DNA of 38,274 bases from Roseivivax isoporae LMG 25204 (GTDB taxonomy: Bacteria > Pseudomonadota > Alphaproteobacteria > Rhodobacterales > Rhodobacteraceae). The stretch covers positions 1 through 38,274 of the forward strand of contig NZ_JAME01000039.1 of NCBI RefSeq assembly GCF_000521865.1, written 5' to 3'. Under the pieces are notes generated by a model, which saw only the letters and a list, made by a program, of their open reading frames with translations, did not search any database and had not been told where the DNA came from. Below, piece by piece: positions 7,282-27,430 of this stretch. How positions within the stretch are numbered: position 1 is the first letter of the stretch; every line of letters starts with the position of its first letter. The position numbers and the translations under genes were made by a program.

Positions 7282-8493
7282 ATGGCGCCGGAACGACTGA
7301 GTTTCACCGGCGCCACCGGCGCCACGCTCGCCGCGCGGCTCGACCGCCCGGACGGGCCGCACCTTGCGACCGCGCTCTTCGCGCACTGCTTCACCTGCGG
7401 CAAGGACATCGCGGCCGCGCGCCGCATCGCGTCGCGGCTGACGGCCGCGGGCGTCGCGGTGCTGCGCTTCGACTTCACCGGGCTCGGCCATTCGGGCGGC
7501 GAGTTCGAGAACACGTCGTTCACCAGCAACGTGGGCGACATCGTCGCCGCCGCGCGCGCGCTCGAGGCCCGGGGCATGGCGCCCGACCTGCTGATCGGGC
7601 ACTCGCTGGGCGGCGCGGCGGTGCTGCGTGCGGCGGCCGACATCCCCTCGGCGCGCGCCGTCGCCACCATCGGCGCGCCGCACGACCCGGGGCACGTCAC
7701 GCGGCACTTCGCCGACGCGCTCGAGCGGATCGAGAGCGACGGCGCGGCCGAGGTGTCGCTGTCGGGCCGCCCGTTCCGGATCGGGCGCGACTTCGTGCAC
7801 GACGTGCGCGCGCAGCGGCTCGATCCGGCCATCGCGGCCCTCGGCCGGGCGCTCCTGATCCTGCACGCGCCGCGCGATGCGGTGGTGGGGATCGACAACG
7901 CCTCGGCCATCTTCGCGGCGGCGAAGCATCCCAAGAGCTTCGTCACGCTCGACGGCGCGGATCACCTCGTGTCGGACCCGGCCGATGCGGACTACGTGGC
8001 GGGGATCATCGCGGCCTGGGCGGCGCGCTACGTCGACCTCGTGCCGCGGGAGGAGGGCGGCGGCGCGCCCGAAGGCGTCGTGCGCGTGTCCGAGGCCGAT
8101 CCGGGCGGCTTCCTGACCGACATCGTGGCGGGCCGGCATCACCTGCAGGCGGACGAGCCGCCGGAGGTGGGCGGGACCGACCGTGGCATGTCGCCCTACA
8201 ACCTGCTGTGCGCCGCGCTCGGCGCCTGCACCAGCATGACGCTGCGGATGTACGCGCGGCGCAAGGGGCTGGCGCTCGACCACGTGCGGGTCGACGTGAG
8301 CCATGACCGCCGCCATGCGACTGACGCCGAGACCGAGACGCCGGCGAAGGTGGATGCCTTCGTGCGGGACATCACGCTGGAGGGTGACCTGAGCGACGCG
8401 GACCGCGCGCGGCTCCTCGAGATCGCGGACCGTTGCCCGGTGCACCGCACGCTCGAGCAGGGCGCGCGGGTCGAGACTCGCGCGGTGCGCTGA
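7282..8493 (+). CDS. Bifunctional alpha/beta hydrolase and OsmC-family peroxiredoxin fusion
   Basis: A 403-residue protein made of two domains. Residues 1 to about 255 form an alpha/beta hydrolase with nucleophile Ser108 in GHSLGG and candidate triad partners Asp199 (HAPRDAVVG) and His228 (GADHLV). Residues of about 270-403 form an OsmC/Ohr-type domain with the two reactive cysteines of that family, Cys316 in GACTSMT and Cys385 in RCPVH. OsmC/Ohr proteins reduce organic hydroperoxides. The hydrolase substrate is unknown, but a lipid or ester peroxide released by one domain and reduced by the other is a reasonable inference. The ATG follows dnaE by 25 bases with GGGAGG upstream. It converges on leuA across a strong hairpin. 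Confidence 0.9.
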   Translation: MAPERLSFTGATGATLAARLDRPDGPHLATALFAHCFTCGKDIAAARRIASRLTAAGVAVLRFDFTGLGHSGGEFENTSFTSNVGDIVAAARALEARGMAPDLLIGHSLGGAAVLRAAADIPSARAVATIGAPHDPGHVTRHFADALERIESDGAAEVSLSGRPFRIGRDFVHDVRAQRLDPAIAALGRALLILHAPRDAVVGIDNASAIFAAAKHPKSFVTLDGADHLVSDPADADYVAGIIAAWAARYVDLVPREEGGGAPEGVVRVSEADPGGFLTDIVAGRHHLQADEPPEVGGTDRGMSPYNLLCAALGACTSMTLRMYARRKGLALDHVRVDVSHDRRHATDAETETPAKVDAFVRDITLEGDLSDADRARLLEIADRCPVHRTLEQGARVETRAVR

Positions 8494-8500
8494 GCGACAG

Positions 8501-8525
8501 GGCGCGGCCCACGAGGGGCCGCGCC
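8501..8525. terminator. Bidirectional hairpin between the hydrolase-OsmC gene and leuA
   Basis: A perfect 10-base stem GGCGCGGCCC / GGGCCGCGCC with a five-base loop lies in the 40-base gap between two convergent stop codons. No T-run follows on either strand, so intrinsic termination may be inefficient or need Rho. The position makes a shared terminator the simplest reading. Confidence 0.6.
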
Positions 8526-8533
8526 GCGCAGGA

Positions 8534-10108
8534 TCAGCCCACGTCCTTGTAGGAGATCTCCTTGGCGTCCGCGCCGGGGCCCGCCTTGTCGCGGCGGACG
8601 AGCAGGCGGTTCAGTGCGTTCACGTAGGCGCGGGCCGAGGCGACGACGGTGTCGGTGTCGGCCGACTGGCCGGTCGCGATCATGCCGTCCTCCTCGAGCC
8701 GGACGCTGACCGTCGCCTGCGCGTCGGTCCCTTCGGTCACCGCGTGCACCTGGTAGAGCTGCAGGTGCGCCTTGTTCGGGTGCAACGCCCGCACCGCCTT
8801 GAAGGTCGCGTCGACCGGTCCGTCGCCCTCGCAGGTGGTCGAGACCTCCTTGCCGTCGATCTCCATCTCGAGCTCGGCGCGCGCGGGACCGCCGGTGCCG
8901 CAGGTCACCGCGAGGTTCACGATCGACAGCCGGTCGGCCATGCCGTCGGTGGTCGTGGCGGTGACCAGGGCGAGGATGTCCTCGTCGTAGACCTCCTTCT
9001 TGCGGTCGGCGAGGTCCTTGAACCGCACGAAGATGTCCTTGAGCTGGTTGTCCCCCACGTCGACGCCCAGGTCCTTGAGCTTGGAGCGCAGCGCGGCCCG
9101 GCCCGAATGCTTGCCCATCACGAGGTTCGTCGCGGACAGGCCCACGTCCTCGGGGCGCATGATCTCGAACGTCTCGGCGTTCTTCAGCATGCCGTCCTGG
9201 TGGATGCCCGATTCGTGCGCGAAGGCGTTCTTGCCGACGATCGCCTTGTTGTACTGGACCGGGAAGCCCGACACCGCCGCCACGCGGCGCGAGATGTGCA
9301 TGATCTTGCGCGTGTCGACGCGGGTCTCGAAGGGCATGATGTCGCCGCGCGTGCGCAGCGCCATCACCACCTCCTCGAGCGCGGTGTTGCCTGCCCGCTC
9401 GCCGAGCCCGTTGATCGTGCACTCGATCTGCCGCGCGCCGCCCTCGACTGCGGCGAGCGCGTTCGCCGTCGCCATGCCGAGGTCGTTGTGGCAGTGCGTG
9501 GCAAAGACGATCTCGTCCGCGCCCGGCACCGTCTCGATCAGCCGCCGGATCAGGTCGGCCGATTCGCGCGGCGCGGTGTAGCCCACCGTGTCGGGGATGT
9601 TGATCGTCGTGGCGCCGGCGCGGATCGCGATCTCGACCACCCGGCAGAGATAGTCCCACTCGGTGCGCGTCGCGTCCATGGGCGACCACTGCACGTTGTC
9701 GCAGAGGTTGCGCGCGTGGGTCACCGTCTGCTCGATCCGCTCGGCCATCTCGTCCTGGGTCAGGTTCGGGATCGCGCGGTGCAGGGGCGAGGTGCCGATG
9801 AAGGTGTGGATGCGCGGATGCGCGGCGCGGCGCACCGCCTCCCAGCAGCGGTCGATGTCGGCGAGATTGGCGCGGGCGAGGCCGCAGATCGTCGAGGTGC
9901 GCGAACGCTCCGCGATCTCGGACATGGCGCGGAAATCACCTTCGGAGGCGATGGGAAAGCCCGCCTCGATGATGTCGACGCCCATCTCCTCGAGCAGTTC
10001 GGCGATCTCGAGCTTCTCGGCATGGGTCATGGTGGCGCCGGGCGACTGCTCGCCGTCGCGCAGGGTGGTGTCGAAGATGAGAACGCGGTCTTTGGGCGTG
10101 TCGGTCAT
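8534..10108 (-). CDS. leuA: 2-isopropylmalate synthase
   Basis: First committed enzyme of leucine synthesis. It condenses acetyl-CoA with 2-oxoisovalerate. The protein has 524 residues. DTTLRDGEQSPG at residues 13-24 is the HMGL-like TIM-barrel signature and HCHNDLG near residues 204-210 supplies the metal-binding His residues. A C-terminal LeuA dimer domain, the site of leucine feedback in the family, is present. The start at 10108 has GGAG about eight bases upstream. The frame stays open another 96 codons upstream, but that stretch is low-complexity Arg/Pro sequence and coincides with the attenuator. A leucine-rich leader peptide and alternative hairpins lie upstream, so expression is probably controlled by leucyl-tRNA supply as well as by allostery. 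Confidence 0.96.
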   Translation of the reverse strand: MTDTPKDRVLIFDTTLRDGEQSPGATMTHAEKLEIAELLEEMGVDIIEAGFPIASEGDFRAMSEIAERSRTSTICGLARANLADIDRCWEAVRRAAHPRIHTFIGTSPLHRAIPNLTQDEMAERIEQTVTHARNLCDNVQWSPMDATRTEWDYLCRVVEIAIRAGATTINIPDTVGYTAPRESADLIRRLIETVPGADEIVFATHCHNDLGMATANALAAVEGGARQIECTINGLGERAGNTALEEVVMALRTRGDIMPFETRVDTRKIMHISRRVAAVSGFPVQYNKAIVGKNAFAHESGIHQDGMLKNAETFEIMRPEDVGLSATNLVMGKHSGRAALRSKLKDLGVDVGDNQLKDIFVRFKDLADRKKEVYDEDILALVTATTTDGMADRLSIVNLAVTCGTGGPARAELEMEIDGKEVSTTCEGDGPVDATFKAVRALHPNKAHLQLYQVHAVTEGTDAQATVSVRLEEDGMIATGQSADTDTVVASARAYVNALNRLLVRRDKAGPGADAKEISYKDVG

Positions 10109-10287
10109 GGGTCCGGTCTCCAGATCAGGTCGTCTCTGCCGGCGCGGGCGCTTGGCCACGCGGTCCGGTCTCTGGGGCGCCTCGCGAGTGGGCCGGGCAT
10201 GCTGCGGTCCGGCGCGGGCCGCGTGGGGGCCTCGGGTCGGAAAGCGGTTTCGGCATGCGGGGTCCTCGGTCGGCGGCGGCGGTTCGT

Positions 10288-10345
10288 CTCGGCGCGGGAA
10301 ACATCGTCCTCTGAGCGGTCGCGCCGAGCAGGCCGCGCTCAGAGG
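10288..10345 (-). promoter_or_regulatory. leuA transcription attenuator (mutually exclusive hairpins)
   Basis: Read on the minus strand, four segments follow the leucine codons. A (10345-10336) is CCTCTGAGCG, B (10328-10320) is CTCGGCGCG, C (10317-10308) is CGCTCAGAGG and D (10296-10288) is CGCGCCGAG. A pairs perfectly with C over 10 bases and B with D over 9. The arrangement is interleaved, so only one pair can form. Segment A contains the leader's last Leu codon and its UGA stop. A ribosome that finishes the leader would cover A and allow B:D, while a ribosome stalled on the Leu run would leave A free to pair with C. B:D lacks a following U-run, so the exact termination mechanism is uncertain. 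Confidence 0.75.
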
Positions 10346-10422
10346 CGGGTAAGGAGCAGAAGGCCGAGCGGAAGCGCCGCCTGAAGGCGGTCGCACGTCG
10401 CGATATGGGGCCGAACTGTCAT
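10339..10422 (-). CDS. leuL: leuA leader peptide
   Basis: A 27-codon reading frame, MTVRPHIATCDRLQAALPLG followed by LLLLTRL and a stop. Seven of the last eleven codons are leucine, including four in a row (CTT CTG CTC CTT at 10362-10351). This is the hallmark of a ribosome-mediated attenuation leader for a leucine gene. An alternative in-frame ATG lies three codons upstream at 10431. A -10-like TAATAT ends seven bases before the 10422 ATG and there is no Shine-Dalgarno sequence, so the peptide may be read from a leaderless transcript. Confidence 0.82.
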   Translation of the reverse strand: MTVRPHIATCDRLQAALPLGLLLLTRL

Positions 10423-10429
10423 GGCGCGC

Positions 10430-10458
10430 ATATTACGCAGCCCTGCGGGAAAGAAAAC
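10430..10458 (-). promoter_or_regulatory. Candidate promoter of leuL-leuA
   Basis: On the minus strand TAATAT (10435-10430) matches the sigma70 -10 box at 5 of 6 positions. The region 16-17 bases upstream is T-rich (GGGTTTTCTTTC) but has no good -35 hexamer. The predicted start of transcription falls on or beside the A of the leader ATG at 10422. Confidence 0.45.
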
Positions 10459-10672
10459 CCGTCTCCGGCGCGATTTTTCTTGCCTCGCGACTGCGCGCGT
10501 GGTTTCGGGAGGCCATGAACGCGACGACGATCCTTCGACGAGGCCGCTGAGCCTTTCCCGCCGCCCCGGCCATGGCCCGGGCGACCCGTCCGCGTCCGTC
10601 CATCCCCGTCCAGCTTGACTCGCCCAGAGGCGCTTGGCACGTCTTGGGCTCTTCCCGCCAAGGAGCGATCCG
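10436..10672. other. Divergent leuL-argD intergenic region
   Basis: Together with the leuA leader this gives over 560 bases between the annotated leuA and argD starts. The part from about 10460 to 10610 shows no convincing gene. Before argD there is TTGACT at 10615-10620 without a clear -10 box at 17 bases, and a TTGGCACG sequence at 10634-10641. The argD ribosome site AAGGAG is at 10660-10665. Confidence 0.4.
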
Positions 10673-11860
10673 ATGATCCCGTCCGTCCTGCCCACCTACA
10701 ACCGCGCGCCCCTGTCCTTCGTGAAGGGCGAGGGATCCTGGCTGATCGAGGCGGACGGTCGCCGATTTCTCGATCTCGGCGCGGGCATCGCGGTCAACGC
10801 GCTCGGCCACGCGCATCCGGCCCTGGTCGCGGCGCTGACCGAACAGGCCGGCAAGCTCTGGCACGTCTCGAACCTCTACCGCATCCCCGAGCAGCAGGCG
10901 CTGGCCGACCGGCTGGTGTCCGAGACCTTCGCCGACACGGTGTTCTTCACCAATTCCGGTACCGAGAGCTGCGAGCTCGCCGTCAAGATGGCGCGCAAGT
11001 ACTGGTACGAGAAGGGGAAGCCGGAAAAGACCGACATCGTCGCCTTTACCGGGTCGTTCCATGGCCGCTCGTCCGCCGGCATCGCCGCCGCGGGATCCGA
11101 GAAGATGGTCAAGGGCTTCGGCCCGCTGCTGCCGGGCTTCGTGCACGTGGACTGGGCCGACCATGACGGCCTGAAGGCCGCGATCACCGACACGACTGCC
11201 GCGATCCTCATCGAGCCGGTGCAGGGCGAGGGCGGCATCCGCCCGCTGCCCGACCAGTGTCTGAAGGGCCTGCGCGCCCTCTGCGACGAGCACGGGATCC
11301 TGCTGATCCTCGACGAGGTGCAGTGCGGCATGGGTCGGACCGGCAAGCTTTTCGCCCACGAATGGTCCGGCGTCACGCCCGACATCATGATGGTCGCGAA
11401 GGGCATCGGCGGGGGTTTCCCGCTCGGCGCGGTGCTGGCCACGGAAAATGCCGCCTCGGGCATGACGGCCGGGACCCACGGCTCGACCTATGGCGGCAAC
11501 CCGCTCGCCTGCGCGGTCGGGCTCGCGGTCATGGACCATCTCGCCGATCCGGACTTCCTTGCCGGGGTGCGGCGGCGCGCGGCGCTCTTCCGCCAGCGGC
11601 TCGAGGGCCTCGTCGCCACCCATGCGGGCGTCTTCGACGAGGTGCGCGGACAGGGCTTCATGCTGGGGCTCAAGTGCCGGCTGCCCAACACCGACGTCGT
11701 CGCCGCATGCTACGAGCGCGAGCTCGTCACGGTGCCCGCGGGCGACAATGTCGTGCGGCTCCTGCCGCCGCTCACGCTCTCCGAGGCCGAAATCGCGGAG
11801 GCGATCACGCGGCTCGACCGCGCCGCGACCTCGGTCGAACTCAAGGCCAAGGCTTCCTGA
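10673..11860 (+). CDS. argD: Acetylornithine aminotransferase
   Basis: A class III PLP-dependent aminotransferase of 395 residues that converts N-acetylglutamate semialdehyde to N-acetylornithine in arginine synthesis. It may also serve as succinyldiaminopimelate aminotransferase. Visible motifs are [17 protein letters not shown] (PLP phosphate region), [13 protein letters not shown], the aspartate-containing [15 protein letters not shown], and the Schiff-base Lys243 in [13 protein letters not shown]. The start is fixed by AAGGAG eight bases upstream. An upstream in-frame ATG at 10634 has no such site. The gene is followed 77 bases later by argF, the usual alphaproteobacterial argD-argF pairing, and this context supports argD over other class III enzymes such as GabT or AstC. 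Confidence 0.93.
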
Positions 11861-27283: not shown

Positions 27284-27311
27284 AAAAAAAGGCCGGGCAC
27301 AAAGCCCGGCC
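27284..27311 (-). terminator. Strong intrinsic terminator downstream of the response regulator
   Basis: On the minus strand GGCCGGGC (27311-27304) and GCCCGGCC (27298-27291) form a perfect 8-base stem with a five-base loop, followed directly by seven T. The T-run lies on the minus-strand side, so it ends transcripts coming from the response regulator. On the plus strand only the hairpin faces the dehydrogenase gene. Confidence 0.9.
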
Positions 27312-27430
27312 AGGTCCAACAGGGAGGTTGGCATGTGATGACCCGCACATGCCCACGGGCTCCGGTGTAACAGATGGAACCACGTCCGGTTCCCTCCGTC
27401 AGGTGCGAATTTCCGGACTTTGCGCAATTG
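27284..27430 (-). ncRNA. Candidate small RNA or structured 3' region
   Basis: Between the response regulator stop and its terminator lie three extra hairpins on the minus strand. GGAACC/GGTTCC is at 27393-27376, and the 8-base stem GGCATGTG/CACATGCC is at 27353-27330. A small hairpin CCAAC-CTCCCT-GTTGG at 27331-27316 shares two bases with the previous one. The last loop displays CTCCCT, complementary to Shine-Dalgarno sequences, a trait of several alphaproteobacterial regulatory RNAs. Together with the strong terminator this looks like a 3' UTR-derived RNA of about 145 bases. No separate promoter is clear. Evidence is structural only. Confidence 0.42.

Follow-up and report, generated by a model that had tools for sequence, protein, structure and literature searches.

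A conserved leucine-leader control element upstream of leuA in Alphaproteobacteria, a likely counterpart of the actinobacterial LEU element

Introduction

The leuA gene of Roseivivax isoporae LMG 25204 is preceded by a short, leucine-rich reading frame and by two interleaved helices, which raises the question of whether a ribosome translating this leader controls leuA and, if so, at which step of expression. An earlier note, made from the sequence alone, had read the site as a ribosome-mediated attenuator in which two mutually exclusive helices, A:C and B:D, decide the outcome and one of them acts as a terminator. In this study, we have followed up that reading by computational comparison. The whole stretch of DNA that was analyzed, 38,274 nucleotides of contig NZ_JAME01000039.1, is referred to here as the window.

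Two kinds of leader-based control form the background to this question. In the enteric trp, leu, and his transcription attenuators, a leader peptide carries the regulatory codons and the ribosome is the sensor. In translational attenuators, such as the ermC leaders, a ribosome stalled on the leader frees a ribosome-binding site that is otherwise sequestered.

In most Actinobacteria, leuA is preceded by the LEU element, in which a leader with Leu codons is combined with a pseudoknot and with a base stem that joins Leu codons to the Shine-Dalgarno box (Seliverstov et al. 2005, PMC1262725). In the part of that paper used here, no terminator is named, attenuation is judged unlikely, and a regulatory protein is proposed, with orthologues of ML1624 (DEAD-box domain) as the candidates; two statements there describe the effects of Leu-codon mutations in Streptomyces coelicolor either as unlike classical attenuation or as absent. 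The Streptomyces lividans leader LeuL1 (MRFGLLLLSCRGEGL) is described, in the part of its source used here, as leaderless and without a typical Rho-independent terminator (PMC8079986). A search of titles and the starts of abstracts, largely outside the subscription literature, found no publication on a leuA leader or a LEU element in Alphaproteobacteria.

Results

The element and leuA both lie on the minus strand (Table 1). Read from its second Met, the leader has 27 codons, ends in LPLGLLLLTRL and the stop codon, and carries Leu at 7 of its final 11 codons, as the earlier note had said; its stop codon is 230 nt upstream of leuA. The ATG at 10431 was considered as an alternative start, since it is in frame, but it overlaps the -10-like TAATAT (10435-10430), and the conserved leaders match the ATG at 10422. 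The 10 perfect Watson-Crick pairs of A:C and the 9 of B:D were likewise confirmed, with single-helix energies of about -17.0 and -16.1 kcal/mol, respectively. When the 58-nt segment underwent 20,000 mononucleotide shuffles, an interleaved pair of at least 10 and at least 9 bp arose in 0 of them, and a scan of the entire window in 80-nt sections (step 20, both strands) flagged only this site and its own mirror. The regional folding energy was ordinary for the composition (z of -0.95 and -0.76); the case for the element therefore rests on comparison, because energy alone would not single out the site.

Table 1. Positions of the leuA leader element and neighboring features in the window
Feature	Position	Strand	Evidence and remarks
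-35-like TTTTCT	10452..10457	-	T-rich at -35 to -33 relative to leader ATG (50 aligned leaders); consensus only
-10-like TAATAT, 7 nt before leader ATG	10430..10435	-	A/T block, positions -14 to -10 of the 50 aligned leaders; consensus only
Leader ORF	10339..10422	-	ATG 10422, TGA 10341-10339; 27 codons plus TGA; MTVRPHIATCDRLQAALPLGLLLLTRL, then stop
Four successive Leu codons CTT CTG CTC CTT, core of strand E	10351..10362	-	In relatives, E pairs as an anti-Shine-Dalgarno strand
A, 5' strand of pseudoknot stem 1, holds leader stop codon	10336..10345	-	A:C pairing and covariation
B, 5' strand of pseudoknot stem 2	10320..10328	-	B:D pairing; covariation in Rhodobacterales-like elements
C, 3' strand of stem 1	10308..10317	-	A:C pairing and covariation
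D, 3' strand of stem 2	10288..10296	-	B:D pairing and covariation
GAGGA, Shine-Dalgarno-like, ahead of second small ORF	10263..10267	-	Candidate F; TCCTT:GAGGA, 5 bp, not above chance
Second small ORF	10125..10256	-	43 aa, MPKPLSDPRPP...; stop 16 nt before leuA start; putative translational coupler
leuA, 2-isopropylmalate synthase (TIGR00973 type)	8534..10108	-	524 aa

A longer, 59-aa reading of the second small ORF, from an ATG within the C-D loop, is also open. No Pfam family was found for this ORF in the window, and an extension of leuA could be ruled out, since its ATG is not in the leuA frame. The sister genome, L085, has a small ORF in the same place, which ends 17 nt before leuA (16 nt in the window) and encodes a peptide not obviously like that of the window. 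A comparison of positions 10080-10480 with Rfam 15 gave no family at the gathering score and nothing relevant at E values of up to 1. Elsewhere in the window, at 27285-27361 on the minus strand, lies the SorX small RNA (RF02784, 84 bits), which Rfam describes as a singlet oxygen resistance RNA.

A LeuA protein search provided 80 named loci from Rhodobacterales and other Alphaproteobacteria; among these, a short ORF ending in LLLLxRL, LLLLSRP, LLLLSCP, or a similar sequence recurs upstream of leuA and is followed by an A:C-like hairpin. The first helix reading left out eight of the 80 loci, in which the ORF was mispicked or absent (L018, L048, L049, L057, L059, L066, L071, and L072), and alignment A2 consists of 72 named loci and the window (73 sequences). 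In A2, A:C was paired in 97.1% of 730 cells, and 8 of its 10 pairs had double-sided changes; all of the 500 shuffles fell short of A:C on each of the five measures, and slid versions of the helix paired at 24 to 55%. The leader stop codon joins the stem, since leaders that end in TGA, TAG, or TAA show matching changes in C. Three Caulobacteraceae loci (L057, L066, and L072) have CCCCTGGGCG as strand A, without a stop codon.

A model built from A2 later matched six of the eight loci left out; the other two were L049, which has 18 nt of upstream sequence, and L048, the only one of the seven non-A2 loci with upstream sequence to go unmatched. Among the 79 named loci with upstream sequence, the element was thus found before leuA in 78, namely the 72 of A2 and, by the model, six of the seven others. 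All 9 genomes examined from the genus of the window have a leader ending in LLLLTRL and carry both helices, with B:D judged by eye. Conservation therefore supports the part of the earlier reading that saw leuA as controlled through a leucine leader whose stop codon lies inside A.

Further helices were examined by reading elements over 137 loci, which gave 120 distinct elements after the removal of six identical copies; 11 loci were undetected by the script (L040, L048, L049, L057, L059, L066, L072, L113, L115, L125, and L152). Among the latter, L040 is in A2, L057, L059, L066, and L072 were matched by the model, and L113, L115, L125, and L152 are sites of model matches. The Rhodobacterales-like set consisted of 79 elements whose leuA is at least 73% identical to that of the window, and the comparison set of 41 other alphaproteobacterial elements. 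Alignment through D misplaced D because the C-D loop varies; B:D, and a third helix described below (E:F), were therefore tested by a best-helix search against swapped partners and not by a pair counter.

In this search, the picking of the best helix inflates scores and the limits applied (the final 14 nt of the loop for B, at most 30 nt after C for D) fix part of the geometry, and the swapped-partner control shares both biases; B:D scored 20.6 in the 79 Rhodobacterales-like elements, compared to 18.5 (sd 0.30) for swapped partners (z of 7.3). After thinning to 57 elements, without the window, L004, and L085, the scores were 20.28 and 17.80 (sd 0.36). B and D change together, as in GGCGCG:CGCGCC, GGTGCG:CGCACC, TTCGGGTGC:GCACCCGGG, and TCCGGGC:GCCCGGA. 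In the 41 other alphaproteobacterial elements, B:D was weak (z of 2.5) and A:C strong (z of 9.2), and the loop often resembles an inner hairpin; given this weakness outside Rhodobacterales, the pseudoknot may be a local elaboration. The loss of conservation that the earlier note had named as evidence against its reading was not what we found: the Leu run and A:C are kept in relatives, and B:D is kept in Rhodobacterales.

The spacer between B and C is 0 to 4 nt long, and D starts 6 to 13 nt past C in 78 of the 79 Rhodobacterales-like elements and 21 nt past it in one, with the C register placed one base early; in this register, the B-C distances read 0 to 3 nt, one less than with the full C. 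In H-type pseudoknots, loops of such size would permit both stems at once. Since B lies so close to C and the loops are of H-type size, both helices could fit one H-type pseudoknot, and the mutual exclusion on which the earlier note had built would not be needed; by this geometric argument, A:C and B:D could form together.

The third helix involves the Leu codons themselves. Strand E, which consists of the Leu codons and the codons that follow, is complementary to F, the region just before the downstream start codon. In the 79 Rhodobacterales-like elements, E:F scored 16.3, compared to 12.9 (sd 0.29) for swapped partners (z of 11.6), and the 41 other alphaproteobacterial elements gave a z of 4.7. 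In the thinned set of 57, from which the window, L004, and L085 were left out for their long spacers and in which the cupin start was used in cupin loci (see below), the scores were 17.35 and 13.09 (sd 0.33). The excess was found in 16-nt windows ending 0 to 24 nt before the start codon (z of 4.3 to 8.9), had its maximum at end points of 12 and 18 nt (z of 8.2 and 8.9), and was gone in those ending 30 to 60 nt before it (z of -0.8 to 1.1). On the strength of the swapped control and this positional profile, we rejected the view that E:F simply results from CTN codons lying opposite purine-rich sites. Examples are TCCTAAGCCG:TGGCTTAGGA in L013, TCCTTAGCC:GGCTAAGGA in L015, and TTCTTCTTACGCT:AGCGTAAGAAGGA in L032. 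Locus by locus, a P value of 0.05 was reached in 31 of the 70 Rhodobacterales-like loci; in part of the family, E:F is thus short or not visible.

In six loci (L005, L017, L026, L120, L123, and L141), a gene of 117 to 118 aa lies between the element and leuA; both of the two that were tested are Cupin_2 proteins. E pairs better with the ribosome-binding site of the cupin gene than with that of leuA in five of the six (six-locus means of 18.5 versus 12.2), and in those five, F ends 5 to 8 nt before the cupin start. The shuffled-site P values for E:F at the cupin site were 0.07, 0.004, 0, 0, and 0.028 in the five and 0.61 in the exception, L141. The better fit to the cupin site suggests that E:F pairing tends to follow the first gene. 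In L085, E:F is GCTCCTT:GAGGAGC, with F ending 4 nt before its small ORF (P of 0.086). In the window, E:F was not above chance at the site of the second ORF (P of 0.96), at the leuA site (0.39), or over the whole spacer (0.88); the window thus keeps the leader and the pseudoknot with E:F at chance, which counts against applying any E:F-based mechanism there without reserve. A 17.9-kb Phaeobacter inhibens plasmid record (L096) carries leuA together with the leader, A:C, B:D, and an E:F candidate.

The covariance model from A2, designated R1, placed the element in the genome of the window at an E value of 8.7e-12, the next-best place having an E value of 1.67. Among 385 genomes spread over the class Alphaproteobacteria, some of which may be model-building species, R1 matched at least 102; the multi-genome scans scored 14 candidates per genome, and the match counts are therefore lower bounds. 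All 102 matches are upstream of a leuA. By listed coordinates, 87 lie 61 to 198 nt upstream, and the other 15 precede a same-strand leuA found by tblastn, at up to 422 nt where another gene intervenes. The leuA concerned is nearer the LeuA type of the window in 101 cases and nearer LeuA2 in one (L111); a TIGR00973 leuA was present in 194 of the 385 genomes at the threshold applied. A scan of the phylum matched at least 70 of 398 genomes, all 70 in Alphaproteobacteria; the 398 include the class, with the share from other classes unstated. These comparisons indicate that the element is a real and widely conserved control element of leuA.

R1 gave no match at the LeuA2-type loci L102, L103, and L104 or at L106; L105 was matched at an E value of 0.01. 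Leu-rich leaders are nevertheless present in the group formed by L102 to L106 and L111, where they stand before LeuA2-type genes of Shinella, Sinorhizobium, Cupriavidus, Sphingomonas, and one alphaproteobacterium and before leuA-like DNA of Gemmatirosa.

A terminator scan of positions 8300-10800 found 0 sites. Within the 12 nt after C, a U-rich stretch is present in 2 of the 79 Rhodobacterales-like elements and 1 of the 41 others; after D, one is present in 1 of the 79. Counted anywhere between C and leuA, such stretches were seen in 14 of the 79 elements and in 7 of the 41. The terminator helix of the earlier note is therefore not borne out.

Fifty of the 79 Rhodobacterales-like leaders begin with M....[HDN]I and carry, upstream of that ATG, both a T-rich block at -35 and, at roughly -14 to -9, a block that resembles TATAGT. 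From the spacing of these blocks, the transcript may begin at or next to the leader AUG, and the leader ORF is probably leaderless, as the trpL leader of S. meliloti is stated to be in the part of its source used here (PMC10117765). The residues [HDN]I of the motif are leader codons 6 and 7 (10407-10402 in the window); they keep a fixed spacing from the start codon, and their distance to the Leu run varies. CATATC occurs in 36 of the 50 loci with the motif, where selecting loci by the motif fixes part of the pattern.

Four actinobacterial leuA loci with a Leu leader were compared. Their A:C has 11 to 12 pairs (P of 0.003 to 0.01) and their B:D 5 to 7 pairs (P of 0.20, 0.07, 0.03, and 0.02). 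E:F is clear in Microbacterium, where GCTTCTTCTT:GAGAAGAAGC lies five nt before leuA (P of 0.003), and was not above chance in the other three. R1 matched the leaders of Nonomuraea, Microbacterium, and Nocardia at rough E values of 3.3e-4, 0.043, and 0.19, respectively, and missed that of Tsukamurella.

Discussion

We consider it reasonably likely that the element corresponds, in Alphaproteobacteria, to the LEU element of Actinobacteria and serves as a ribosome-read translational attenuator of leuA. As far as sequence comparison can indicate, it works like the LEU element and has, at the level of the family, the structure by which that element is defined: a Leu leader upstream of leuA, interleaved helices (in Rhodobacterales), and a base stem between Leu codons and the Shine-Dalgarno region. 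There are also differences: the alphaproteobacterial element nearly always precedes a TIGR00973-type LeuA, its leader stop codon usually lies inside A:C and not after it as in Actinobacteria, and its second stem is weak outside Rhodobacterales. The S. lividans leader is similar in being a Leu leader before leuA; it differs, according to the part of its source used here, in having 15 residues and in preceding an actinobacterial leuA (PMC8079986).

The likely switch, which was absent from the earlier note, is a helix formed by the Leu codons and the ribosome-binding region of whichever gene comes first downstream, so that the switch probably hides a ribosome-binding site rather than ends transcription. 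The order of parts would be a leaderless short ORF with its Leu run (E), an H-type pseudoknot (A:C and B:D), and then F of the first downstream gene. It can be envisioned that when leucyl-tRNA is ample, the leader is completed and the ribosome released, leaving E free, so that E:F would form beside the pseudoknot and close the ribosome-binding site. When leucyl-tRNA is short, the ribosome would wait on the Leu codons and cover E, F would be open, and leuA would be translated. A ribosome extends about 13 nt beyond the start of its A-site codon; on the first Leu codons, it would reach only the edge of A, so the pseudoknot could persist while F opens. The pseudoknot may be regarded as a putative clamp that brings E to F. 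In the window, where an extra small ORF precedes leuA, control would have to be exerted on this ORF and passed on to leuA through translational coupling.

This proposed switch shares with the classical attenuators a leader that has regulatory codons; unlike them, it would act at the ribosome-binding site, and terminators are rare or absent. It differs from the ermC type in that stalling would result from amino acid starvation and in that the sensor codons themselves would be the anti-Shine-Dalgarno strand. The earlier note was right in kind in calling the site an attenuator, whereas its two-state terminator model is unsupported.

Whether the alphaproteobacterial and actinobacterial elements share a common origin is a separate question from the mechanism. 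They may be convergent, with the layout following from the use of CTN codons as an anti-Shine-Dalgarno sequence, and we put the chance of this at slightly below even. A Leu leader is present in four of six actinobacterial leuA loci and absent from two Streptomyces plasmid copies, only one of the three R1 matches is clear, the actinobacterial stop codon follows A, and the LeuA types differ, all of which favor convergence; however, the three R1 matches fall exactly on the leader, and CTTAGCTGCC after the Leu run is common to both groups. At even odds, in our judgment, stands the broader proposal of one leuA switch design, in at least two phyla and with both LeuA types, in which sensor codons, clamped by a pseudoknot whose first stem usually holds the leader stop codon, form the anti-Shine-Dalgarno strand and are retargeted to whichever gene comes first.

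As to mechanism, control could act on translation and yet have Rho-dependent termination, in the untranslated leader or in leuA, as its main output. Such an output would fit both E:F and the finding that intrinsic terminators are rare, and Rho is considered for cys leaders that lack terminators in the part of the LEU paper used here (PMC1262725); however, it would be a consequence of E:F and not an alternative to it, and we regard it as unlikely to be the main output, although Rho-dependent polarity may follow.

Ribosome-mediated transcription attenuation, with A:C and B:D mutually exclusive and one of them the terminator, would account for a Leu-run leader with its stop codon inside A and for two strong helices. 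We nevertheless find it highly improbable, because U-rich stretches so seldom follow C or D, no terminator-like site was found, the loops are of pseudoknot size, and the pairing of E with the ribosome-binding region would be left unexplained. The least probable reading is repression of leuA by a protein bound to the pseudoknot, with the leader in a secondary role: the structure is compact and conserved, and Leu-codon mutations in Streptomyces are reported, in the part of the paper used here, to lack the classical response, but the same part reports close ML1624 homologues only in Actinobacteria (PMC1262725), whereas in Alphaproteobacteria the layout occurs widely, with the Leu run retained and with E matching the ribosome-binding site of the first gene.

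In conclusion, we have shown that leuA in many Alphaproteobacteria is preceded by a conserved element that is a candidate RNA family. If one switch design does serve both phyla, the actinobacterial LEU element would likewise be a translational attenuator that the ribosome reads, rather than the site at which a protein of Actinobacteria acts. The LEU layout across Alphaproteobacteria, with E fitting the site of the first gene, provides a concrete mechanism that would be testable in easily handled bacteria, one in which the sensor codons and the regulatory RNA strand could be the same nucleotides.
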